Shown: positions 52,464-64,000 of the stretch, one piece after another | Numbering within the stretch: position 1 is the stretch's first letter | Layout: each line of letters begins with the position of its first letter | Assembly: GCA_001657385.1 (NCBI GenBank) | Contig: LYSZ01000003.1 | Location: 423,341-487,340, forward strand | Length of the DNA: 64,000 nt | Source: Parvularcula sp. BBD 1991-13 | Lineage (GTDB): Bacteria > Pseudomonadota > Alphaproteobacteria > Caulobacterales > Parvularculaceae | Direction of reading: 5' to 3' | The notes under the pieces: generated by a model | The model's input: only the letters and a program-made list of their open reading frames with translations | Told to the model about the DNA's origin: nothing | Databases searched by the model: none | Program-made: the position numbers and the translations under genes

Positions 52464-54191
52464 CTACCCAGAGGCTTGCCCGGCGGCCTCGCCCGCGGCT
52501 TGCGCAGCGGCCCCGTCATCGCTCCCGTCATGGCCCTTGCCGGGGCGGCGCTCCGCATCCGGGACCTGTGCGGCGAGCCACGCCTCGACCGCCGCCGCCT
52601 CGTCCCCGGTGAGATGAAGCCCGAGCTTGGTCCGCCGCCAGAGGATGTCGTCGGCGGTCATGGCCCATTCGGCGTCGACGAGATATTCGGCCTCCGCCTC
52701 GGTGAAGGCCATGCCGCCGGACGGGCTGAAATCCCGGCCGAGATCGGCCATCGACGCGGCGTCGCCGAGAACGGCGCGAAGGCGCGTGCCGTACTGGCGC
52801 GCGAGACGGTACAGTCCCCGCTCGGGCAGCCAGGGATAAGCCGCGCGCGCTTCATCCAGGAACCCGTCGAAGTCCGCACCCGGAATGTCTCCCCCCGGCA
52901 GCGGCGCGTCGCGGGTCCAGGGGCGCCCGCTCGCGCCCAGCAGCGGCTCAAGTTTTTTCAGGGCCGCCTCGGCGAGGACGCGGTAGGTCGTGATCTTGCC
53001 GCCGAAGACGGACAGGATCGGCGCCGCCGCTCCGTCCTCCGCGCCGCCGCCGTCCAGTTCGAACACGTAATCGCGCGTCACCGCGGAGGCGGACTTGCTC
53101 TGCGCATCGTCGTAAAGCGGGCGCACGCCGGAATAAGTGTGAACGATATCGTCGGGCGACAGCTCCGCCCGGAAATAATCGCGCGCCATGGCGAGGGTGT
53201 ACGCGCACTCCTCGGCGCTGGCGACGACGCGGTCCTTGTCGCCGTCATAGGGAATGTCCGTGGTGCCGAGCAGCGTATAATCGCGCTCATAGGGAATCGC
53301 GAACTGGATGCGTCCGTCCGGGTTCTGAAAAATATAAGCGTGATCGCCGTCATAGAGCTTGCGGACGATCACGTGACTGCCCTTGACCAGCCGCAGGGTG
53401 GAAGACGACCGTCCTCCGGTGTTGCCCGCGTTCGCCAGCACGTCTGAGACCCACGGGCCCGCCGCGTTGACGATGGCGCGCGCCCGGACGATGCGCTCGC
53501 CCCCGCGCCGGTCTCTCAGCCGGACGCGCCAGCCGCCGGCGACGCGCGCCGCGCCGACGAACGCCGTGCGCGGCATGACGGCGGCGCCGCGCTCCTTCGC
53601 GTCGAGGAGATTGAGGATCACCAGCCGCGCATCGTCCACCCAGCAGTCGGAGTACTCAAAACCGAACGTATACGCATCTTTCAGCGGCGCCCCCTGCGGC
53701 GTCTTGCGCAGGTTGAGCGAGGTCGTCGGCGGCAGGATCTTGCGCCCGCCCAGATGGTCGTACAGAAACAATCCCGCACGCAGCATCCAGACCGGCCGCT
53801 GGCCCTTGTCATGGGGCAGGACGAAGCGCAGAGGCCAGATGATATGCGGGGCGGCGCGCAACAGGGTCTCGCGCTCGATCAGCGCCTTGCGGACCAGCGC
53901 GAACTCGTAATATTCGAGGTAGCGCAGGCCCCCATGGATCAGCTTGGTGCTCGCCGACGACGTCGCCGAGGCGAAATCGCCCTTGTCGCACAGGGCGACC
54001 TTCATCCCGCGGCCGGCCGCGTCCCGGGCGATCCCTGCGCCGTTGACGCCCCCGCCGATGATGAAAAGATCGTAAGCGGCGGTGTCGTCGCCAGCGCCGC
54101 CTTCTCCGGCGCCGCCTTCTTTGGGGCCGTCATTTCGGGGGCCGCCATCGCCGGAGGACGGCGCTTCGACGGGATCGCGCAATGCTGACAT
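52464..54191 (-). CDS. glpD: FAD-dependent glycerol-3-phosphate dehydrogenase
   Basis: 575 residues from the ATG at 54191; the longer frame reads through repeats and is unlikely. A ~38-residue Gly/Ala/Asp-rich leader precedes the FAD-binding motif DLFIIGGGVNGAGIARDAAG. Family blocks follow: ALCDKGDFASATSSASTKLI, HGGLRYLEYYEFALVRKAL, NAAGPWVSDVL, and RDYTLLGTTDIPYDGD. The enzyme oxidises glycerol-3-phosphate to dihydroxyacetone phosphate, passing electrons to quinone. It lies beside the sulfonate cluster on the same strand as slcC. A link through glycerol from sulfoquinovosyl glycerol is conceivable but unproven. Confidence 0.93.
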   Translation of the reverse strand: MSALRDPVEAPSSGDGGPRNDGPKEGGAGEGGAGDDTAAYDLFIIGGGVNGAGIARDAAGRGMKVALCDKGDFASATSSASTKLIHGGLRYLEYYEFALVRKALIERETLLRAAPHIIWPLRFVLPHDKGQRPVWMLRAGLFLYDHLGGRKILPPTTSLNLRKTPQGAPLKDAYTFGFEYSDCWVDDARLVILNLLDAKERGAAVMPRTAFVGAARVAGGWRVRLRDRRGGERIVRARAIVNAAGPWVSDVLANAGNTGGRSSSTLRLVKGSHVIVRKLYDGDHAYIFQNPDGRIQFAIPYERDYTLLGTTDIPYDGDKDRVVASAEECAYTLAMARDYFRAELSPDDIVHTYSGVRPLYDDAQSKSASAVTRDYVFELDGGGAEDGAAAPILSVFGGKITTYRVLAEAALKKLEPLLGASGRPWTRDAPLPGGDIPGADFDGFLDEARAAYPWLPERGLYRLARQYGTRLRAVLGDAASMADLGRDFSPSGGMAFTEAEAEYLVDAEWAMTADDILWRRTKLGLHLTGDEAAAVEAWLAAQVPDAERRPGKGHDGSDDGAAAQAAGEAAGQASG

Positions 54192-54238
54192 CGAGACTTC
54201 GCCTTTCCTGACCGCGCCCCCCGCCGCAAAACGCGTCC

Positions 54239-54277
54239 GCATGATGCGCCCGCATGATGCGCCCACATGATGCAACG
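54239..54277. repeat. Three 13-bp direct repeats upstream of glpD
   Basis: GCATGATGCGCCC occurs at 54239-54251 and 54252-54264, then ACATGATGCAACG at 54265-54277. All lie 48-86 bp before the glpD start on the minus strand, where a promoter or operator would be expected. Confidence 0.6.
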
Positions 54278-54443: not shown

Positions 54444-55370
54444 CTAGCGGGCGAGAACCTCCAGCACGTTGGCGACGGTGGCGCGGCTGACCCGAAGGTT
54501 CGATTCCGCCGTCACGCCGGCGATATGCGGCGTCAGCACGATATTCGGCAGGTCTTTGAACGTCTCTCCCGCGGCCGCCGTCAGCGGTTCGGTCTCGAAC
54601 ACGTCAAGGGCCGCGCCGGCGAGCCGGCCTTCCCGCAGCGCGCCGGCGAGCGCCGCCTCGTCGACGATCCCGCCGCGCGCCGCATTGATCAGCACCGCGT
54701 CGGCGCGCATGGCGCGAAGGGCGTCCGCGTCGATCAGATGGCGGGTTTCCTCCGTCAACGGCGCATGCAGGCTGAGCACGTCGGACTGGCGAAGCACGTC
54801 GTCGAGGGACAGCCGGCGCGCGCCGCGCCAGCGCGGATCGTCGGCAGGCAGATACGGATCGCAGGCGAGGACGGTCATGCCGAGCGCGGCCGCGCGACGC
54901 GCCGTCTCGCGCGCGATGGCGCCGAAACCGACAAGCCCCAGCCGCGCGCCGGAAAGCTCGCGCCCGATCAGTTGTCCCCGCGGCCAGTCGCCGCGCGCCA
55001 CGGCGCCGGTCGAAAACCATGCGCCGCGCCGCAGCGCCATCGCCGCGGTAATGACGTATTCGGCGACGGCGAGATCGTTGGCGCCGGCGGCGGGACGCAC
55101 CTCGATCCCCCGCGCCGCGCAGGCGCCGAGGTCGATATTGTCGAGCCCAACGCCGAGCCGGCCCACCACTTCAAGCCTCGACGCGGCGTCGAGAAGGGAG
55201 CCGCGCACCTGCGTGCGATTGCGCACGATCAGCGCGCGCGCGTCCGCCGCCGCGGCGGCGAGGCGGTCCGGATCGTCGACGAGCGACGGGTCGAACAGGA
55301 AGTCGCGGCCGCGAAACCCCTCGCGCGCGATCTCTTCGTCCATGAATTCGCACACAACGATCTCGGCCAT
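54444..55370 (-). CDS. slcC: (S)-sulfolactate dehydrogenase (D-2-hydroxyacid dehydrogenase family)
   Basis: The 308-residue NAD-dependent enzyme has the 2-hydroxyacid dehydrogenase layout: VVGRLGVGLDNIDLGACA, cofactor motif LGLVGFGAIARETARRA, catalytic Arg in INAARGGIVDE, Glu in DVFETEPL and His in VLTPHIAGVT. On its own it could be a phosphoglycerate-type dehydrogenase. Next to comC, suyAB and an exporter it is best read as SlcC, which oxidises (S)-sulfolactate to 3-sulfopyruvate. It is the last gene of the minus-strand sulfolactate operon, 54 bp after the exporter. Confidence 0.85.
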   Translation of the reverse strand: MAEIVVCEFMDEEIAREGFRGRDFLFDPSLVDDPDRLAAAAADARALIVRNRTQVRGSLLDAASRLEVVGRLGVGLDNIDLGACAARGIEVRPAAGANDLAVAEYVITAAMALRRGAWFSTGAVARGDWPRGQLIGRELSGARLGLVGFGAIARETARRAAALGMTVLACDPYLPADDPRWRGARRLSLDDVLRQSDVLSLHAPLTEETRHLIDADALRAMRADAVLINAARGGIVDEAALAGALREGRLAGAALDVFETEPLTAAAGETFKDLPNIVLTPHIAGVTAESNLRVSRATVANVLEVLAR

Positions 55371-55424
55371 GGCGTTTCCTTTCCGGTTGCCTTGCGCGTC
55401 TGCGCCTTCCCTCGCGCGGCCCCG

Positions 55425-56441
55425 TCAAAACAGCATCAGCGAGACGGTCGCGCCGGCGAACAGGACGACCGTCACCGCCACCGCCAGACCGATATGGGAA
55501 GCGCCGAGATCGGCCATCGATTTCAGCGAGGTCTTGACGCCCAGCGCAGCGATGGCGGCGATCAGGAACCAGCGCGACACCCAGTCCAGCCCCTGCGCCG
55601 CGACGGCGGGGATGAGCCCGGCGCTGTTGACGCAGAGGATGACGACGAACGCGACCGCGAACCAGGGCGGCGCGACGCGCGCGCGCCCGCCGGCGCCGTC
55701 CGCCCGGCCCCGCATCAGCAGGGCGTAGGCCAGCACCACGACCGGCAGGCAGGCGACGCGCAGAAGTTTCACATAGGTCGCGACTTCCCCGGTTTCATCC
55801 GAAACCGCGAACCCGGCGCCGACCACCTGCGCCACGTCGTGAATGGTCGCGCCGATGAGCACGCCGGTCTCGGTGTCGTCGAAGCCGATGGCGTTGAAAA
55901 AAATCGGATAGGCGATCATGGCGACGGTGGACAGCGCGGTCACCGCGACGACGGTGAACAGCGTGTCGCGGCGCATGCGATCGGAGGTCGGCAGCACCGA
56001 GGCCAGCGCCAGCGCCGCCGACGCGCCGCAGATCGCCACGGCTCCGCCCAGCAGGAGGCCGAATTCCACCGGCTTGGAAAACAGCCTCGCCAGCACGACG
56101 CTGGCGAAGATCGTCAGTATAATGAGGGAAATCACCAGCACGACCGGCCCGTAGCCGAGGCTTGCGATCTGCGCGAACGTCACCCGCGCGCCGAGCAGGG
56201 CGACGCCGAGTTTCAGGATCGTCGTCGAGGCGAAGTCAATCCCCGGCCCGCACTTCCTGTCCTCGTGCAGAAAGTGAAAGGCGATGCCGATCAACAGGGC
56301 GAACAGCATCGCCGGCGCGCCGTAATGCTCGGACATGAAGCGGGCGGCGGCGGCGACGGTGCCGGCGACAAGCAGTCCCGGCGCGATGCGCTGCAAGGCC
56401 GCGTTTAAAGCCGCAGTTCTGGTTTTGGCGATGGCGTTCAT
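55425..56441 (-). CDS. YeiH-family exporter, likely sulfite export
   Basis: About 338 residues from the ATG at 56441. A TTG at 56459 overlapping the comC stop would add six residues and couple translation. Ten to eleven membrane helices carry YeiH/UPF0324 blocks: APAMLFALLIGIAFHFL, TILKLGVALLGARVTFAQI, LGGAVAICGASAALAL, GATIHDVAQVVGAGFAVS and FLIAAIAALGVKTSLKSM. Such proteins recur beside C3-sulfonate lyases (the CuyZ type, from memory), where sulfite must leave the cell. Here it sits between comC and slcC in the sulfolactate operon, which makes sulfite the likely substrate. Confidence 0.85.
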   Translation of the reverse strand: MNAIAKTRTAALNAALQRIAPGLLVAGTVAAAARFMSEHYGAPAMLFALLIGIAFHFLHEDRKCGPGIDFASTTILKLGVALLGARVTFAQIASLGYGPVVLVISLIILTIFASVVLARLFSKPVEFGLLLGGAVAICGASAALALASVLPTSDRMRRDTLFTVVAVTALSTVAMIAYPIFFNAIGFDDTETGVLIGATIHDVAQVVGAGFAVSDETGEVATYVKLLRVACLPVVVLAYALLMRGRADGAGGRARVAPPWFAVAFVVILCVNSAGLIPAVAAQGLDWVSRWFLIAAIAALGVKTSLKSMADLGASHIGLAVAVTVVLFAGATVSLMLF

Positions 56442-56455
56442 TGGGGTCGGAATTG

Positions 56456-57517
56456 TCAATCAGATTGGCTAACAAGATTGTCAATCTCTCTAAACAAACT
56501 TTCCGGAATTGACAGCCCGTTCTTTTCCGCCGCGAGGCGTTTCGCGCGCCGGCCCGCCCCTGGCAGGCGCGCGCCCTCCGTCGCCTCGACCAAGCGCGCC
56601 AGAACCGCCATGCGCGCCGCGAACGCGCCGCCGGAAACCGCCTCCGGGTCGAGGGCGATCATGACATGGCCGAGATCGGGCGGCGGGCCTTCGGCCTCGA
56701 AAAGGGAACTGGCCTCGAATCCGAAATGACTGCCCGCAAGGGTCGCGACGATGATTTCCACCATCAGCGCCAGCACGGCGCCCTTGGCGCCGCCGGCGGG
56801 CGCCATGGAGCCTTTCAGGGCCGCATCCGGGTCCGTCGTCGGCGCGCCGTCCGCATCGAGCGCCCAGCCTTCGGGAATCGGCGTTCCGGCTTTCTGCGCG
56901 GCGACGATCTTGCCGCGCGCCGCGACGGAAAGCGCCAGGTCGATGACCAGCGGCGGTTCTTGCTGTGCTCTAGGCGGTGCTTCGGGCGGTGCTCCGGGCG
57001 GTGCTCCGGACGGCATGGGCGCGGCGAAGGCGATCGGATTGGTGCCGAGCGCGGGCGCCGCCGAGCCCCACAATGCGATGGCCTTGGGCGAGTTGCCGAA
57101 AACGAGAGCGACCAGTCCCCGCTCGGCGAGCTTTTCCGCATGGGCGCCCGCCTGGCCGAAATGGTGCGAACGGAAGATCGCGGCGACGGCGATCCCGTTT
57201 TCCCTGGCGCAGGGCGCAAGCGCGTCGATGGCGAGATCGATGGCGCGATAAGCGAGCCCGTGATCAGCGTCCACGCGGATGGCCGCCCTGCCCGCCCGCA
57301 CGAGCGAGGGTTCGGCCGCGGGATTGGCCTTGCCGCTCGCCAGTTGCGCCGCATAGGAAGGAACGCGGGTCAGCCCGTGGCCGCGCTGGCCGTCGATCTC
57401 CGCGGCGACGAGGGCCCGCGCCGCGGCGCGGGCGTTTTCCGGCGTCGCGCCGGCGGCCTCGAACGCCGCAACGGCGAGCCGGCGCGCCTCCGCGATGCTG
57501 ATCGTGATGGTTGACAT
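56456..57517 (-). CDS. comC: (R)-sulfolactate dehydrogenase ComC (Ldh_2 family)
   Basis: About 353 residues from MSTITISIAEARRLAV at 57517. The malate/L-sulfolactate dehydrogenase fold shows EIDGQRGHGLTRVPSYAAQL, RSHHFGQAGAHAEKLAERG with a catalytic His, and LGTNPIAFAAPMPSG. The enzyme reduces 3-sulfopyruvate to (R)-sulfolactate with NAD(P)H, the isomer SuyAB needs. A proline-rich insertion (GAPPGAPPEAPPRAQQ), encoded by 12-bp tandem repeats at 56972-57007, follows that strand and is unusual for the family. In this operon the ComC role is well supported; malate or lactate dehydrogenase is the alternative. Confidence 0.86.
   Translation of the reverse strand: MSTITISIAEARRLAVAAFEAAGATPENARAAARALVAAEIDGQRGHGLTRVPSYAAQLASGKANPAAEPSLVRAGRAAIRVDADHGLAYRAIDLAIDALAPCARENGIAVAAIFRSHHFGQAGAHAEKLAERGLVALVFGNSPKAIALWGSAAPALGTNPIAFAAPMPSGAPPGAPPEAPPRAQQEPPLVIDLALSVAARGKIVAAQKAGTPIPEGWALDADGAPTTDPDAALKGSMAPAGGAKGAVLALMVEIIVATLAGSHFGFEASSLFEAEGPPPDLGHVMIALDPEAVSGGAFAARMAVLARLVEATEGARLPGAGRRAKRLAAEKNGLSIPESLFREIDNLVSQSD
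56972..57007. repeat. In-frame 12-bp tandem repeat in comC
   Basis: GGCGGTGCTTCG, then GGCGGTGCTCCG twice (plus-strand reading), encode the Gly-Ala-Pro-Pro-type run in ComC. Multiples of three keep the frame. It looks like a microsatellite-style expansion in a surface loop. Confidence 0.6.
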
Positions 57518-57570
57518 ACGGACCTCGCCCCCGTCCCTCGCGGCTGTCGCCAACGCGGCGCGTAACGCCG

Positions 57571-58743
57571 CTATGCGCTGCGATAAAGCTTGGTCATGAC
57601 GAATTCGCGGTGGCCCAGCGCCTCCGCGGCGGTCGCGCGGCCGTTGGCGGTGCGCACGACCATCTCGATCAGGGCGTCGCCGGCCTGGTCCATGGTCAGT
57701 TCACGGCGCAACAGCCCGGAAACGTCGACGTCGATATGTTCGCTCATGGTCCGCACCGTGCGCGGATTGGCGGTGAGTTTCACCACCGGCACGACCGGAT
57801 GACCGATAATGTTGCCCTGGCCGGTCGGGAAGGTGTGCACGGTAAAGCCGGCCGCCGCCATCAGCGTCACGCATTCCGCCGCCGCCGAGGACGAGTCCAT
57901 GAAATACATGCCCGATCCCTTTGTAGGGGCGACGGCGGGGCCGACCGCATCGAGATACCGCGTTTCGCGACCGAGCTTTTCGAGATTGCCGAGGGCCTTT
58001 TCCTCGATGGTGGAAAGCCCGCCCTCGATATTGCCCTTGGTCGGCTGGCTGTCGGAAAGATCGGAGGTCTTGTGCGCCTCGATCACCTCGTCCTGGTAAG
58101 CCTGGAAGATCCGCATGAAGCGCTCGCCCGCTTCGGGCGTCGCCGCGCGCGCCTTGCACAGATGTTCCGCCCCCGTCAGTTCCGAGGTCTCGCCGAAAAC
58201 GCCGGTGATCCCCTTCGGGATCAGCTTGTCGTACATGTTGCCCACCGCCGGATTGGCGCCGCAGCCCGAAGTCGTGTCGCTCTCGCCGCATTTGGTGGAA
58301 ATCCACAGATCCGAGACCGGACACGCCTCGCGCTGCAACTCGCTCGCCCAGTGCACGTAATCCTTGGCCTGGCGCGAGGCGGCGGCGATGGTGGCGATGT
58401 CGCCGTTCTGCTCGATGGAAAATCCCGTCACGGGCTTGCCCGTCTCGGCGATCCCGTCCACGACCCGCCTGGTCCAGCCGGGCTCGATGCCGATCACGAC
58501 GCAGGCGGCGACATTCGGGTTGGCGCCGGTGCCGATGATGGTGCGGAAGAACAAATCCAGATCCTCGCCGAACTGCAATCGTCCGTAGGCGTGGGGCAGC
58601 GCCAGCGTTCCCTTGATGTTGCTGGCGACGGCTTCCGCAGCAGCGTTGGAAATGTCGTCGACCGGCAGGATAACCACATGGTTGCGCACGCCGACGCGCC
58701 CGTTCTCGCGGCGATAGCCGAGGAATGATTCCGTATTGACCAT
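57571..58743 (-). CDS. suyB: (R)-sulfolactate sulfo-lyase, large subunit SuyB
   Basis: The 390-residue UxaA-family lyase subunit has [20 protein letters not shown], the family opening, then [33 protein letters not shown] with clustered cysteines for a metal or iron-sulfur site, and [20 protein letters not shown]. With SuyA it eliminates sulfite from (R)-sulfolactate to give pyruvate. The closest alternatives are altronate or galactarate dehydratase subunits, but the separate SAF-domain subunit and comC/slcC neighbours favour SuyB. The gap from suyA is 9-10 bp. Confidence 0.9.
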
Positions 58744-58753
58744 GATGGATGCC

Positions 58754-59044
58754 CTACCAGCGTTTCGTTTTCAGGTTATGCACATGGACATGCGCCCCCT
58801 TGGCGACGTCGCTCGTCAGCCGGCCGATGTCCTCGCCGTATTTGATCGCCGCGCCGCCTTCGGACAGGTCCTTGAGCGCGACCTTGTGGCCGATGGGAAC
58901 GTCCTGCGTCGCGGTCAAGCGAAAATCGGAATCGTCCTCCGTCACCACGCAGAGCATGTCCGTGCCGGCGGTCAGTCCCTCGACGACGACAACGCCGACA
59001 TTGTCTTCCCGGCTGTGCACAAGCAGATGAGGCGTCGACACCAT
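58754..59044 (-). CDS. suyA: (R)-sulfolactate sulfo-lyase, small subunit SuyA
   Basis: The 96-residue SAF-domain protein starts with ATG at 59044 behind AAAGGAC. It shows [18 protein letters not shown], the early SAF block, then [13 protein letters not shown] and [15 protein letters not shown]. The tail [13 protein letters not shown] is the hallmark of SuyA and related UxaA N-subunits. It pairs with SuyB to cleave (R)-sulfolactate to pyruvate and sulfite. First gene of the minus-strand sulfolactate operon. Confidence 0.92.
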
Positions 59045-59407
59045 AAAGTCCTTTCTGTTCGGCCGTTTCGGCTTCGATTAGCGAGCCCCGGCGGTTACGG
59101 GGCCGGTTACAGAGCACCGGTCGTTGCACCCCTGTCTTCTGGGCAGCCCGGTCTTCGGGCGTCGGCCATGTCGCATCCGCCCCTTCGCGCCAACCACGTC
59201 GCGTCAGCCGCGTCGCATCGATCATGGAGACGGCGCTGATACAGCTTGCGTCAGTATGGCCGCTTCAACATGGCCGCGTCAGCATGGGGACGCGCCGCCG
59301 ACGAATGGCCGCGCCGCCCGGGTCGGCGCGCTGACGCGCCAACTCTTATATATGATACATTACAACAAACAATAGACAACCAGCAAGACGCGCTGTAATT
59401 TTTCGCC
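59045..59407. promoter_or_regulatory. Divergent control region of suyA operon and GntR regulator
   Basis: No gene seen. This 363-bp region must carry promoters for the minus-strand suyA operon and the plus-strand regulator. It contains the dyad GGCGCG-CTGA-CGCGCC at 59325-59340 and, next to it, the AT-rich TCTTATATATGATACATTAC stretch from 59344. The first eight bases of that stretch resemble the half-site TCTTATGT of the palindrome before the aldehyde dehydrogenase. It also holds a reiterated ATGGCCGC motif around 59257-59315. Confidence 0.5.
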
Positions 59408-60145
59408 ATGGAGCTTCAGGAACGCCACTCGGACCGGCCGGGCTTTCGGCCTTTGTATCAACAGGTTAGAGACTTGCTGGTGTCGCGCATCTCGACCGGG
59501 GCGTGGCGTCCGGCCGAGGCCCTGCCCAGCGAACAGGCGCTGGCGGTCGAACTCGGCGTCAGCCAGGGCACGGTGCGCAAGGCGATCGATTCCCTCGTCG
59601 CTGAGAACCTGATCGAACGCCGCCAGGGCAAGGGCACCTATGTCGCGCAGCATACGCGCGAAAGCGCCCAGTTCCGGTTTTTCAAGCTGACCCATGACGG
59701 CGGCGAGCGCGCCCTGCCCTCCTGCCGGCAATCGACGATCATCCGCCGCCCGGCGAGCGCGGAGGAATGCGCGAAACTCGACCTGCGCCGGCGCAGCGAC
59801 GTCTACCAGATCGCGCGCACGCGATACGCCCGGAACAAGCCGGTCCTGCGCGAGAGCATCGTCGTCCCCGCGGCCCTGTTCCCCGGTCTCGACACCCGCC
59901 AGCCGCTGCCGAATACGCTGTATACGTTCTATCAGTCGGAATTCGGCGTCTCCGTCAACGGCGCGCGCGAGCGGTTGAAGGCCGTCGCCGCCGACAAGGA
60001 GGCCGCGCGCGAACTGCTGGCGGCGCCGGGCGCGCCGCTGCTCAGCGTGGAGCGCGTCGCCCTGGACGTCGCCGGAAGGCCGATCGAGCTGCGGCGGACC
60101 GCGTTCCTGACCGAGAACACGCATTACGGGATCGAGTTGAGCTGA
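59408..60145 (+). CDS. GntR/HutC-family regulator of sulfolactate catabolism
   Basis: The 245-residue regulator has a GntR winged helix (FRPLYQQVRDLLVSRISTGA, PSEQALAVELGVSQGTVRKA, ERRQGKGTYVAQH) in residues ~12-80. A UTRA/HutC effector domain follows (YQIARTRYARNKPVLRESI, ERVALDVAGRPIELRRTA). HutC-type proteins are released from DNA by a pathway metabolite. Its divergent position next to suyA and upstream of the sulfolactaldehyde dehydrogenase/kinase genes points to a SuyR-like local regulator sensing a sulfonate intermediate. The effector is not known from sequence. Confidence 0.88.
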   Translation: MELQERHSDRPGFRPLYQQVRDLLVSRISTGAWRPAEALPSEQALAVELGVSQGTVRKAIDSLVAENLIERRQGKGTYVAQHTRESAQFRFFKLTHDGGERALPSCRQSTIIRRPASAEECAKLDLRRRSDVYQIARTRYARNKPVLRESIVVPAALFPGLDTRQPLPNTLYTFYQSEFGVSVNGARERLKAVAADKEAARELLAAPGAPLLSVERVALDVAGRPIELRRTAFLTENTHYGIELS

Positions 60146-60264
60146 GCGCAGGCCAGCCATGAAGCTTCGCCGCCGCGCACGAGGCGCGAACCGTAAGGCG
60201 TAACGGCGACGCGCGGCGCAACGAACGTCTTACGGCCGGGCCTCCTGCGTTTATCGAGCCGCCA

Positions 60265-60900
60265 TCACGATCCATCAAGCATCGGCGAAAAGGCTCTCTT
60301 GAATTTCTCTTCGGACGCCAGACCAAGGCTCAGCAAGGGCCCGTCAGCCTCGATAAGAACCTTCTCGTTGTTTCTTCCCGGCCCCTTCAATTCGGCAATC
60401 GGCTTATCGACGGAAGCAAGAGCCAAGGTTTCCGCATAGGTGTATAAAATACTGCCTGAATATTCGAGGGTCTTCCTTTCAAATACAGCGGCATACGCTC
60501 CCTTGTTGATTCTGGAGCCAACCATCCGCGAATCGAGGCCCTCGCTTTCGAGAAACAGAATCGCATCCTTTCTTTTGACAAGGGCCCTGCTTTCCAAAAG
60601 CTCTGCCTTCGACAAGAAAAAGTAATCCGATATTTGTTTTCCGCTTACAGGGTGTCCCGCATTATCATAAGGCGGGCCCGAAGAGTCGAAAGAACCGCAC
60701 CAGCTCGCCTCATAGGCGGCAAGCCAGCGTTCTCGCCACCAGGTTTCTTCGCGTCCCTCTTCGGAAATGATTTTTGATCCCTTGGTCACCTCTTCTCTTT
60801 TGTCGAGGTACCATTTCGGAGGGGTCGGCTTGCTTTTGTTGACAGCCACATCTTCGAGATATCCCGAAACATGTCTCAAATAAGAACGCTCGCTAAACAT
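60265..60900 (-). CDS. Hypothetical soluble protein, partner of the upstream membrane protein
   Basis: The 211-residue protein has no recognised domain. It is mixed alpha/beta with a charged N-terminus (KPTPPKWYLDKREEVTKG), WWRERWLAAYEASWC, LLESRALVKRKDAILFLES and GAYAAVFERKTLEYSG. No signal peptide or membrane helix is seen. Base composition is clearly lower in GC than the flanking genes. It starts 8 bp after the 185-residue membrane protein gene, so the two form an operon. Their placement, antisense inside the sulfonate locus, suggests acquired DNA. Function unknown. Confidence 0.65.
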   Translation of the reverse strand: MFSERSYLRHVSGYLEDVAVNKSKPTPPKWYLDKREEVTKGSKIISEEGREETWWRERWLAAYEASWCGSFDSSGPPYDNAGHPVSGKQISDYFFLSKAELLESRALVKRKDAILFLESEGLDSRMVGSRINKGAYAAVFERKTLEYSGSILYTYAETLALASVDKPIAELKGPGRNNEKVLIEADGPLLSLGLASEEKFKRAFSPMLDGS

Positions 60901-60908
60901 GTCGCCTC

Positions 60909-61466
60909 CTATGATGCTTCCTCGCTCCGGGCGGCGATTTGCACCGCATATTTGTTAAACGTGCCCAGGGCCGCCTGACCGACGAAGGCCAACGCCGCCG
61001 ATAAGACCAGAAGAATTAGCCTTTGCCCCCAGTGAACCAGACCGTAACCGGCGAAAAAGTCGACGCCGACCGCAAGAATAATAGCTATGCTTGAATTGGC
61101 ATAGACAAGATAGCTTGAATACCATCGATTACGTTGGATTTCATAGAGATTTCTCTTTTGTTCATCCACCAGCTGCAACAGATCCCAGCTGTCTGTGAGA
61201 TCGCTATGGTCGTTGCGCAGGCGATCAATCAGCGCGGGTATTTTCTGAAAGAGGATCAAGCGCAGAGCGTCGACGATTAAGCCAATCCAAATCACCAGAA
61301 CGAAGACAATGACGCCGACATAGGAAGCCGGCAGCGTCTCATCCAACGCCGAGCTGACTTTCCTGACCCAAGCCGGGTCTCCAATAGCAATCGTTGTGAT
61401 GACAAGCGCGCCGGGCACGGCGTAACTTAGCGTAATAGCTGAATATTTTTGAAGATCCAGATGCAT
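60909..61466 (-). CDS. Hypothetical four-helix membrane protein
   Basis: About 185 residues from MHLDLQKYSAIT at 61466; an ATG ten codons upstream is possible. Four predicted membrane helices: LSYAVPGALVITTIAI, VGVIVFVLVIWIGLIVDAL, SSIAIILAVGVDFF, and LILLVLSAALAFVGQAAL. Between helices two and three lies a cytosolic helical segment (residues ~75-115, rich in Asp, Arg, Leu). No known family recognised. Low GC relative to its surroundings, and it is the first gene of a two-gene unit with the soluble protein at 60265. Confidence 0.65.
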   Translation of the reverse strand: MHLDLQKYSAITLSYAVPGALVITTIAIGDPAWVRKVSSALDETLPASYVGVIVFVLVIWIGLIVDALRLILFQKIPALIDRLRNDHSDLTDSWDLLQLVDEQKRNLYEIQRNRWYSSYLVYANSSIAIILAVGVDFFAGYGLVHWGQRLILLVLSAALAFVGQAALGTFNKYAVQIAARSEEAS

Positions 61467-61797
61467 GCTGTATTCCTTGAACCACGCCCCTCGCACGCAT
61501 CATTTCTTGAAATATCTGTGAGTATTATTTAACGCCGCTGCTGCAGCTATTCAATGCAGCGCGATTGTCGCTCGCCGACACGAGGCGATAGCGACAGATC
61601 CAAGGCCCTTGAGCGCCGCGACTTGCGTTTCTTCAGCCGCTGCGGAAAGGCCGGGCGTGCATGCACACGCCTCCAGGGACAGCGTCGGGCATGGCGCTCA
61701 TGGCGCGGTCAGTTCAACTTCCGCACCCCCGCGGAAAGCCATTTTCCCGCGCCCTTTCCCGCGGCGCAGTTGACTTTACGTCGCGGATGGGCGTTAT

Positions 61798-61816
61798 TCT
61801 TATGTAAGACATAAGA
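61798..61816. promoter_or_regulatory. Candidate operator before the sulfolactaldehyde dehydrogenase gene
   Basis: TCTTATGT-AAG-ACATAAGA is a perfect palindrome with 8-bp arms and a 3-bp spacer, ending 17 bp before the start codon. This position would block transcription or translation initiation. A dimeric GntR/HutC protein such as the neighbouring regulator is the obvious candidate. Confidence 0.55.
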
Positions 61817-61833
61817 TAGAAAGTCGGGATTTT

Positions 61834-63282
61834 ATGGCCGCGCCCGTCAAACGAGACCGCCTGTTCATCGACAACGAATGGCGCCGCGCCGACAGCGGCG
61901 AGACCATCGCGGTCGCGAACCCGGCGACGGGCGAGGTCATCGGGACGGTCCCGAAAGGCGCCCGCGCGGAAACCGCGAGCGCGATCGAGGCGGCGGCTCG
62001 CGCCCTTCCCGAATGGCGCCGGCGCACGGCGCAGGACCGCGCCGCGCACATGCTCCGGCTGCATGACGCGCTCATGGACCATCGGGACGCGCTGGCGGCC
62101 ATCCTGACCGAAGAGATGGGCAAGCCGCTCGCCGAAGCCAGGGGCGAGATCGCCCACGGGGCGGGTTTTTTCAAATGGTTCGCCGAGGAAGGCCGGCGCA
62201 TTTACGGCGACATCATCCCATCGCCCTGGGCGGATACGCGGATCGTGGTCTCCAAGCACCCGGTCGGCGTGGTCGGCGCGATCACGCCGTGGAACTTTCC
62301 GAACTCGATGATCGCGCGCAAGCTTGCCGCCGCCCTCGGCGCGGGCTGTACGATGGTGATCAAACCGGCCTCGCAAACGCCCTATTCGGCCCTCGCCTTC
62401 GGCGACATGGCCATGGAGGCGGACCTGCCCGCCGGGGTCGTCAATATCGTCACCGGCGCCGCGTCGGAGATCGCCGCGGAGATGTGCGAGAACCCGGCCT
62501 TGCGCAAGATCACCTTCACCGGCTCCACGGCGACGGGCAAGAAACTCGCCGCGCAGGCGGGCGCGCATATGAAGCGCGTCTCCATGGAGCTTGGCGGCAA
62601 CGCGCCGTTTATCGTCTTCGACGACGCCGATCTCGACAAGGCGGTCGAAGGGGCCATGATCTCGAAATTCCGCAATAGCGGCCAGACATGCGTGTGCGCG
62701 AACCGGTTCCTGGTGCAGTCATCCGTATACGATGCGTTCAGCGAAAAATTCGCCGCCGCCATCGCCGAGCTGAAAGTGGGCGACGGCGCCGAGGACGGCG
62801 TGACGCAGGGACCGCTGATCGACGAGGACGCCGTCGCCAAGGTCGAGGAACATGTCGCCGACGCGGCGCGCAAGGGCGGCGAGGTCATCGCGGGGGGCGC
62901 CCGGCACGCGCTTGGCGGCGCCTTTTTCCAGCCGACGCTGATCGGCGGCGCTTCAAGCGACATGCAGATCTTCCGTGACGAAACCTTCGGCCCCGTCGCC
63001 GCCATGTTCCGGTTCGAGACCGAGGACGAAGCGATCCGGATGGCGAACGATACCGAATACGGCCTCGCCTGTTACGCCTATACGAACGATCTCGGCCGCG
63101 CCTGGCGCCTCAACGACGCGCTGGAATACGGCATGGTCGGGATCAACCAGGGCCTGATTTCCACCGAGGTCGCCCCGTTCGGCGGCGTGAAGGCGTCAGG
63201 GATCGGCAAGGAGGGCTCCAAATACGGCGTCGAGGATTACCTCGACGTCAGATACGCGTTGTTCGGGGGACTCGGCCGGTAG
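61834..63282 (+). CDS. Semialdehyde-type aldehyde dehydrogenase, likely sulfolactaldehyde dehydrogenase
   Basis: The 482-residue NAD(P)-dependent dehydrogenase belongs to the GabD/succinate-semialdehyde branch: VGVVGAITPWNFPNSMIARK, KITFTGSTATGKKLA, catalytic Glu in SMELGGNAPFIVF, catalytic Cys in FRNSGQTCVCANRF, and APFGGVKASGIGKEGSKYG. Sequence alone permits succinate semialdehyde. The neighbours (YihV-like kinase 76 bp downstream, sulfolactate enzymes upstream) make (S)-sulfolactaldehyde to (S)-sulfolactate the likely reaction, as in known sulfoglycolytic pathways that end in sulfolactate. A palindromic operator precedes it. Confidence 0.85.
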   Translation: MAAPVKRDRLFIDNEWRRADSGETIAVANPATGEVIGTVPKGARAETASAIEAAARALPEWRRRTAQDRAAHMLRLHDALMDHRDALAAILTEEMGKPLAEARGEIAHGAGFFKWFAEEGRRIYGDIIPSPWADTRIVVSKHPVGVVGAITPWNFPNSMIARKLAAALGAGCTMVIKPASQTPYSALAFGDMAMEADLPAGVVNIVTGAASEIAAEMCENPALRKITFTGSTATGKKLAAQAGAHMKRVSMELGGNAPFIVFDDADLDKAVEGAMISKFRNSGQTCVCANRFLVQSSVYDAFSEKFAAAIAELKVGDGAEDGVTQGPLIDEDAVAKVEEHVADAARKGGEVIAGGARHALGGAFFQPTLIGGASSDMQIFRDETFGPVAAMFRFETEDEAIRMANDTEYGLACYAYTNDLGRAWRLNDALEYGMVGINQGLISTEVAPFGGVKASGIGKEGSKYGVEDYLDVRYALFGGLGR

Positions 63283-63367
63283 CGCGACCATTGCCGTTCG
63301 GAAAGGACGGGCGCGCGCCCCGCATCCCCGCGCCCTGAAGGTTTCGCCGGAAGCGAGGATGACCGAA

Positions 63368-64000
63368 ATGGCGATGAATGAAATCCTGTGCGTCGGACAT
63401 GCGGTCGAGGATCATCTGTTTCGCGTCGCCGCCATGCCTGCGGCCGCCGCGAAGCATCAGGCCCGCGACGTGGAGATTGTCGGCGGCGGACCGGCGGCCA
63501 GCGCCGCGGTCGCCGTCTCGCGCCTCGGCGGCGCGGCGCGCCTGGCAGCGCGGGTCGGCGACGACGCCGTCGGCGCCTCGATCATCGCGGATCTGGAAGC
63601 CGAGGGCGTCGACTGCGCCTTGGTGCGGCGTTTTTCTGGCTGCAAATCTTCCCGGTCGGTCGTTCTGGTCGACGACAAGGGCGAACGGCTGATCGTCAAC
63701 TATCTTGATGCGGCCATGCCGGACGACCCGGCGTGGCTGGCGGCGGCAATCCCGGAAAGCCTGGGGGCGGTTCTCGCCGACATCCGCTGGCCGGCCGGCG
63801 CGCTGTGCGCCCTCGCCGCCGCGCGGCGGCTGGGCGCGCCCGGCGTTCTGGATGCGGATTATCCGGTTCCCGCGGACGGCGCGCTGGTGCGCGCGGCAAG
63901 CCATGTCGCCTTCTCGGCCCAGGGCCTGCGCGCCTATGCCGGCGATGACGACCTCGCCCGCGCCGTCACGCGCGTCGCCGAGGACGCCGGCGTCTGGTGC
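63368..64000 (+). CDS. yihV: Sulfofructose kinase (YihV-like, PfkB family), cut by window end
   Basis: The first 211 residues are present from the ATG at 63368, preceded by GAGG at good spacing; ATGs at 63359 and 63374 are also in frame. PfkB/ribokinase motifs are EIVGGGPAASAAVAVSRLG and ARVGDDAVGASIIADL. The match to E. coli YihV extends through CKSSRSVVLVDDKGER, VLADIRW and VAFSAQGL. Lys-29, Asn-111 and Arg-140 align, at a constant offset of two, with YihV Lys-27, Asn-109 and Arg-138, which contact the sulfonate (from memory). It would phosphorylate 6-deoxy-6-sulfofructose at C1. The C-terminal half, with the catalytic Asp, lies beyond the window. Confidence 0.85.
   Translation, partial: MAMNEILCVGHAVEDHLFRVAAMPAAAAKHQARDVEIVGGGPAASAAVAVSRLGGAARLAARVGDDAVGASIIADLEAEGVDCALVRRFSGCKSSRSVVLVDDKGERLIVNYLDAAMPDDPAWLAAAIPESLGAVLADIRWPAGALCALAAARRLGAPGVLDADYPVPADGALVRAASHVAFSAQGLRAYAGDDDLARAVTRVAEDAGVWC

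Follow-up and report, generated by a model that had tools for sequence, protein, structure and literature searches.

Our analysis of a 64,000-nucleotide stretch from Parvularcula sp. BBD 1991-13 (the window, C4:423341-487340 of a 4.24-Mb genome) and of the contig beyond its end indicates that the locus crossing that end is quite likely one regulon that would let a single cell carry out the whole intracellular breakdown of a sulfosugar glycoside, of which sulfoquinovosyl-glycerol is the likeliest candidate. The enzyme reactions, what they act on and how the genes are controlled are all inferred from the sequence, as follows. A sodium:solute symporter (SSS) would take up the glycoside, a glycoside hydrolase of family 31 (GH31) would split it into sulfoquinovose (SQ) and glycerol, an isomerase related to SftI and SqvD would turn SQ into sulfofructose, a YihV-type kinase would phosphorylate this to sulfofructose-1-phosphate, and a class I aldolase would cleave the product to dihydroxyacetone phosphate (DHAP) and (S)-sulfolactaldehyde. 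The sulfolactaldehyde would then be oxidised to (S)-sulfolactate by a GabD/SlaB-type dehydrogenase, inverted by SlcC and then ComC, by way of sulfopyruvate, to (R)-sulfolactate, and cleaved by SuyAB to pyruvate and sulfite. A YeiH-type exporter would carry sulfite or sulfate out of the cell, a SorAB-like enzyme encoded elsewhere in the genome would oxidise sulfite, the glycerol half would enter through GlpK and GlpD, and the local GntR protein would control both arms through sites of the form TCTTATATAAGA.

Gene content, gene order, conservation and palindrome sites are directly visible in the sequence. The two arms and their predicted control sites are listed below in window positions; beyond 64,000, positions in the contig continuation L003 are added (L003 position + 56659 = window position).

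54444..55370, minus strand: SlcC-type predicted (S)-sulfolactate dehydrogenase (PF02826/PF00389)
55425..56459, minus strand: YeiH-type exporter, putatively for sulfite/sulfate (PF03601, 212 bits)
56456..57514, minus strand: ComC-type predicted (R)-sulfolactate dehydrogenase (PF02615)
57571..58743, minus strand: SuyB, predicted large subunit of (R)-sulfolactate sulfo-lyase (PF04295 and PF20629)
58754..59044, minus strand: SuyA, predicted small subunit, 96 residues with a SAF domain (PF08666, 22.8 bits, cut-off 21)
59344..59355, no strand: predicted operator for GntR in the suyA-gntR intergenic region, TCTTATATATGA, one of two genome-wide pattern matches and a conserved site
59408..60145, plus strand: GntR/UTRA regulator (PF00392 and PF07702)
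61798..61809, no strand: predicted operator for GntR upstream of the sulfosugar arm, TCTTATGTAAGA, the second of the two genome-wide matches, 24 bp from the dehydrogenase gene
61834..63282, plus strand: SlaB/GabD-type predicted sulfolactaldehyde dehydrogenase (PF00171)
63359..64000, plus strand: YihV-type PfkB kinase, predicted for sulfofructose, cut by the window end; the whole gene is L003:6700-7632 and ends at 64291 (7ag6, E = 5e-61)
64309-65349 (L003:7650-8690), plus strand: class I aldolase of the LacD family (PRK12858, 353 bits)
65352-66746 (L003:8693-10087), plus strand: SftI/SqvD-related isomerase (NCBIfam SftI model NF048012, E = 1e-72)
66746-68857 (L003:10087-12198), plus strand: GH31 glycosidase

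A first-pass annotation made within the window had named the eight genes from slcC to the kinase, and all of them are open frames on the strands it gave, with support from reading frames and profiles. It had also proposed that one organism degrades the whole sulfosugar, a prediction now supported by the downstream genes, the kept gene order and the linkage of suyAB. Among the genes it expected past 64,000, the importer is there as an SSS symporter and the aldolase as a class I enzyme closer to the LacD family than to YihT; an isomerase is present but is SftI/SqvD-related and not YihS-like, and a GH31 is present but lacks the sulfonate residues of YihQ. A kinase for an unsulfonated sugar, which it would have taken as a refutation, is not what the sequence points to, the best solved match being the E. 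coli sulfofructose kinase. As gene content, the predicted sulfoglycolytic set is complete together with SuyAB in one cluster, as in extended sulfoglycolysis.

The linkage of these genes is more than chance, since the same order of 11 genes (slcC-yeiH-comC-suyB-suyA < > gntR-aldh-kinase-aldolase-isomerase-GH31) recurs in two further genomes of the source's genus (G013 and G011; Marinicaulis/Hyphococcus, Parvularculaceae) and since 10 of the 33 distinct isomerase loci also have suyAB in the stretch examined. These ten comprise the source genome, G013, G011, a Steroidobacteraceae metagenome-assembled genome (MAG), two Exilibacterium, two Nitratireductor, a Rhizobiaceae MAG and a SAR324 MAG; wherever suyA was found, suyB accompanies it. 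The 33 loci combine both genome searches with 24 named loci; L008 and L029 denote one place, counted once, the distant isomerase matches L028 and L052 were kept, and related loci (L034/L035, L031/L033, L038/L041, L042/L044/L045) were counted singly, the Fisher values below being only guides. Of the 60 genomes searched among relatives, 3 have the isomerase (the source, G013 and G011); a sample of 385 genomes from the class yields 11 with a match, which in 7 cases reaches E<1e-80.

The two arms also appear to share their control. A repeat search in the control regions found the palindrome TCTTATATAAGA, which precedes both arms, and a scan of the 4.24-Mb genome with the pattern TCTTATRTAWGA gives two exact matches, both at the locus (none for the reversed control pattern). 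Because the pattern was built from the window and the relatives' sites, those matches are not independent evidence, although its absence from the rest of the genome, like the SorA site described below, is. The palindrome stands beside both arms in 8 of the 33 loci (the source, G013, G011, both Exilibacterium, both Nitratireductor and the Rhizobiaceae locus), and of the 11 loci that have a GntR homologue 10 contain it, against 2 of the 22 that have none (Fisher 7e-6).

Could the arms be two unrelated neighbours, one operon turning a sulfosugar into excreted sulfolactate and the other degrading imported sulfolactate or cysteate? SuyB does often occur without this sulfosugar module, since it is present in 34 of the 385 class genomes and the isomerase (E<1e-80) in only 7, and three other genomes of the class sample that hold both carry them on different contigs. 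Against such independence stand the shared, nearly private operator, the repetition of the linkage in different families, and the co-occurrence of SuyB in 4 of 7 isomerase genomes versus 30 of 378 others (Fisher 0.0015); moreover none of the listed frames was recognisable as a sulfolactate importer, though no search was aimed at one. We regard two separate operons as very unlikely.

A single regulon could extend to sulfite oxidation. With one mismatch to TCTTATATAAGA allowed, the genome has five sites, two of them at the locus, and a SorA-like gene, predicted to encode a sulfite dehydrogenase, has one of the remaining three 18 bp upstream of its start. This gene, the genome's sole PF00174 gene (it also carries PF03404, and its neighbour encodes a CxxCH protein), had been singled out before the motif was known, and simple arithmetic gives a chance of ~1e-4 that any of three stray sites would lie 100 bp or less from a given gene start. 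When up to two mismatches are allowed, the reversed control outnumbers the motif, 40 matches to 16, so sites this weak carry no meaning, and some caution is due for those with one mismatch as well, the control for the mismatch search being reported at two mismatches and not at one. In G011 the SorA homologue lies directly behind GH31 on the same contig (L010 17816-19045, G011:C159).

Within the desulfonation arm, SuyB is 77% identical to its Paracoccus counterpart, 67.5% to that of Cupriavidus pinatubonensis and 62% to that of Rhodococcus, with the next family group below 39%, which places it in the SuyB clade and not among the altronate or galactarate dehydratases. SuyA and SuyB form separate SAF and GD_AH subunits, and the source genome has one SuyB at E<1e-50, no match to ComD and no Xsc above the cut-off, only distant relatives. 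SlcC is 60-65% identical to genes on eight plasmids, all eight of which also carry a SuyB homologue. From their families and co-location, SlcC and ComC are predicted to have opposite stereospecificity and so to act as a sulfolactate inversion pair.

In the sulfosugar arm the kinase finds E. coli YihV (7ag6, 5e-61) ahead of an uncharacterised sugar kinase (2rbc, 5e-46) and of ribokinases (from 4e-24) among solved structures. It has equivalents of K27, N109 and R138, the sulfonate-side residues of the YihV structure; among 20 of its 25 homologues (>35% identity and 250 aa required) R is kept in all 20, N in 18, and K in each of the 17 that have no gap there (the other 3 are gapped). The aldolase has the class I lysine in 25 of 25 sequences, scores 353 bits with PRK12858 against ~70 bits with YihT entries, and is closer to 8tnf than to YihT; in both residue counts L008 and L029 are each included although they are the same place. 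The isomerase, which is not of the YihS type, has an L-arabinose/L-fucose isomerase fold (model of the G013 homologue, mean predicted local distance difference test (pLDDT) 93) and SftI as its sole NCBIfam match; a solved relative was sought by sequence and none was found. In the dehydrogenase the equivalents of Arg171 and Arg289 of RlGabD are aligned (positions from PMC10599462), although E. coli succinate-semialdehyde dehydrogenase (SSADH) has both as well.

The substrate is likely SQ, because sister modules carry GH188 sulfoquinovosidases with sulfonate-binding residues. A homologue of GH188, which is of the Gfo/Idh type, with the motif R-x3-L-x-K occurs in 16 of the 33 loci, in many of them directly behind the isomerase; one of these was checked against a solved GH188 enzyme (8e-107) and the remaining 15 are its homologues, the residues being those given in PMC10755693 and PMC11465081. 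A motif scan gave 15 loci and L040 was added by eye, and a homology search returned the same 16 and no GH31 locus. GH31 occurs in 11 of the 33 and the two families never together (Fisher 6e-5, with related sequences taken as independent), a complementary pattern that Kaur et al. describe for GH188 and YihQ-type GH31 (PMC10755693). From this mutual exclusion we infer that GH31 takes the sulfoquinovosidase role here.

Another sulfosugar, for example sulfofucose degraded by way of sulfotagatose, would leave the C3 half unchanged. The isomerase belongs with the fucose isomerases and the aldolase with the tagatose-bisphosphate enzymes, the GH31 is without YihQ residues, and Paracoccus wurundjeri, a sulfofucose degrader, has a kinase/aldolase pair in its SuyAB cluster (PMC12421959). 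However, that pair is not induced and the organism showed no growth on sulfofucosides (PMC12421959), the known SqvD isomerases for SQ are themselves fucose-isomerase relatives (PMC9594981), and in 16 of the 33 loci this isomerase has a GH188 protein nearby with the residues that bind the sulfonate of SQ. We therefore consider another sulfosugar unlikely, though less so than two separate operons.

Several results weigh against the complete single-cell pathway. The YeiH exporter reaches 131 bits with TIGR00698 (cut-off 233), the best NCBIfam match of ComC, NF040650 L-sulfolactate dehydrogenase, gives 176 bits (cut-off 500), and the isomerase scores 245 bits against the SftI cut-off of 700, which by that threshold makes it a relative and not a member. 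The dehydrogenase formally scores as an SSADH (651 bits, cut-off 646), the N109 position of the kinase is replaced in 2 of 20 homologues, and a search of the downstream stretch and of the GH31 loci found no epimerase (mutarotase) homologue, the remaining genome not having been searched. Among the 33 loci, 23 have no suyB in the stretch examined, several of these stretches being short, and L030 lacks both the operator pattern and the dehydrogenase. The SorA gene of G013 lies elsewhere in its genome with no operator within two mismatches. In 30 whole genomes (those of L028 and L052 omitted, L041 sharing an isolate with L038) a SuyB of at least 62% identity is found in 16, Xsc above the cut-off in 11 and both in 4, and 7 have neither. 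Finally, the GH31 is nearer to YicI than to YihQ, and it has Q, F and F at the positions of YihQ R301, W304 and Y508, which we take to be the sulfonate-binding residues of that enzyme.

Some of these results would be expected if the sugar arm served an unsulfonated sugar, a xyloside or a galactoside, with GH31 as an alpha-xylosidase: the SSADH score is one, and the closest relatives of the GH31 are indeed 5f7c and YicI. Such a reading has to contend with the sulfonate-side residues of the YihV-like kinase, with desulfonation genes under the same operator, and with a GH31 loop in which DCFW of YicI is replaced by DGRAW, one arginine being added. We think it highly improbable.

How could a GH31 without the YihQ residues recognise a sulfosugar? 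In the 11 aligned GH31 proteins the catalytic D405 and D472 columns are D throughout. Of the three sulfonate columns, the first holds Q, T, D or S (R only in L026), and the second and third hold F in 10 each (L036 differs). Ten of the 11 have DGRAW and TRF where YicI has DCFW and QWCDF; Cys307 and Phe308 of that DCFW are at the site of the sugar C6. This is suggestive, and only suggestive, of the two arginines of DGRAW and TRF as sulfonate readers, and the GH31 may be a second type of sulfoquinovosidase. An AlphaFold model of the GH31 (mean pLDDT 69) was too poor and was not used to place the arginines. As a control, the source genome was searched for GH31 paralogues and has none at E<1e-10; active-site residues were looked for in PMC13219744 and none were found.

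Three further genes flank the arms:

52464..54275, minus strand: GlpD, glycerol-3-phosphate dehydrogenase, the next gene after slcC (PRK13369, 749 bits, cut-off 352)
69058-70545 (L003:12399-13886), minus strand: GlpK, glycerol kinase
70643-72352 (L003:13984-15693), minus strand: SSS sodium:solute symporter

The true start of GlpD is probably further in than annotated, since the PRK13369 match begins at residue 65. GlpD homologues lie near slcC in G013/L029, L030 and L033 also, and GlpK is near in the source genome and L030. The nearness of GlpD and GlpK suggests, from gene position, use of sulfoquinovosyl-glycerol, with the glycerol half also entering glycolysis. On a wider claim our judgement is evenly divided: that a private GntR/TCTTATATAAGA regulon would serve total mineralisation of sulfoquinovosyl-glycerol including sulfite oxidation, that its GH31 would be a second, separately evolved sulfoquinovosidase type reading the sulfonate with the DGRAW/TRF arginines and not with the YihQ residues, and that operator and both arms would travel together across distant bacterial groups.

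The first-pass annotation had left undecided whether the gene combination was new; it has in fact been predicted elsewhere (PMC11465081, PMC9594981). The closest case is the actinobacterium IMCC26103 (Backlund & Higgins 2024), whose GH188 Y160-type cluster holds a sulfolactaldehyde dehydrogenase, D-3-phosphoglycerate dehydrogenase (which we take as SlcC), SuyAB, an aldolase for sulfofructose-1-phosphate, sulfofructose kinase, fucose isomerase and a regulator (PMC11465081), almost the same gene set in one cluster. It has GH188 and ATP-binding cassette transporters and no ComC named in the text consulted, whereas our locus has GH31, ComC, the SSS symporter, GlpD/GlpK and the shared operator. Extended sulfoglycolysis with SuyAB, predicting full use of SQ carbon in one organism, was also proposed for sulfo-transaldolase clusters in Thermotogae and Chloroflexi (PMC9594981); those use a transaldolase, and our locus a kinase and aldolase plus the SlcC/ComC inversion pair.

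In P. wurundjeri, complete degradation of sulfofucose to sulfite was proven by growth, and the authors call it unusual for both parts to coexist in a single bacterium (PMC12421959). It shares SlcC, ComC and SuyAB downstream of a sulfosugar pathway, and differs in its Entner-Doudoroff (ED)-type upper route, an unknown sulfolactaldehyde dehydrogenase and the lack of a glycosidase. Ensifer sp. HO-A22 is a further predicted complete degrader, combining sulfo-ED with 2,3-dihydroxypropane-1-sulfonate (DHPS) genes (PMC10599462). The sulfo-Embden-Meyerhof-Parnas (sulfo-EMP) and hybrid sulfo-EMP/EMP2 pathways of E. coli, Arthrobacter and Vibrio have the same intermediates, a YihV-type kinase and an SqvD-related isomerase, but end in excreted DHPS or sulfolactate (PMC12890257, PMC10599462, PMC13372026); the aldolase of our locus is LacD-like and of class I. 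With the classical E. coli sulfo-EMP pathway the locus shares the YihV-type PfkB kinase and not the YihS-type isomerase.

Since the idea of one organism taking a sulfosugar to sulfite is already in print, the locus is a variant and not a new concept. What is new is the hybrid enzyme set with the ComC/SlcC pair, the non-YihQ GH31, the glycerol genes and the operator, shared by both arms and nearly private, in a marine alphaproteobacterium. In the literature searched, where most papers were screened as list entries and subscription journals were mostly not included, we saw no report of the locus, the operator, the SorA link or the GH31 type.

Two orphan frames, not mentioned in the first-pass annotation, lie between gntR and the dehydrogenase gene (60265-60900 and 60909-61496, both minus strand). 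They match nothing in the stretches of either sister genome, nor anything in Pfam, NCBIfam and PADLOC. In three isomerase loci, L022 (14155-16150), L027 and L039, both subunits of sulfopyruvate decarboxylase are encoded along with SlcC-like proteins; these loci may be a second tandem type that finishes the C3 half via sulfoacetaldehyde. Uncultured Alphaproteobacteria with 1.5-2 Mb of available sequence (L042-L045) have aldolase, isomerase, SlcC-like and GH188 genes, and L043 has genes for a tripartite ATP-independent periplasmic (TRAP)-type transporter among the neighbours. On plasmid pZZM402 of Zymomonas mobilis ZM4 (NC_013785.1, L057 128-11361) a class II aldolase, an epimerase and a related isomerase (~37%) stand with a Gfo/Idh protein bearing a GH188-like EHRFPFLKK, major facilitator superfamily transporters, a TonB receptor and an SSADH, a group that looks like a sulfoquinovose cluster.

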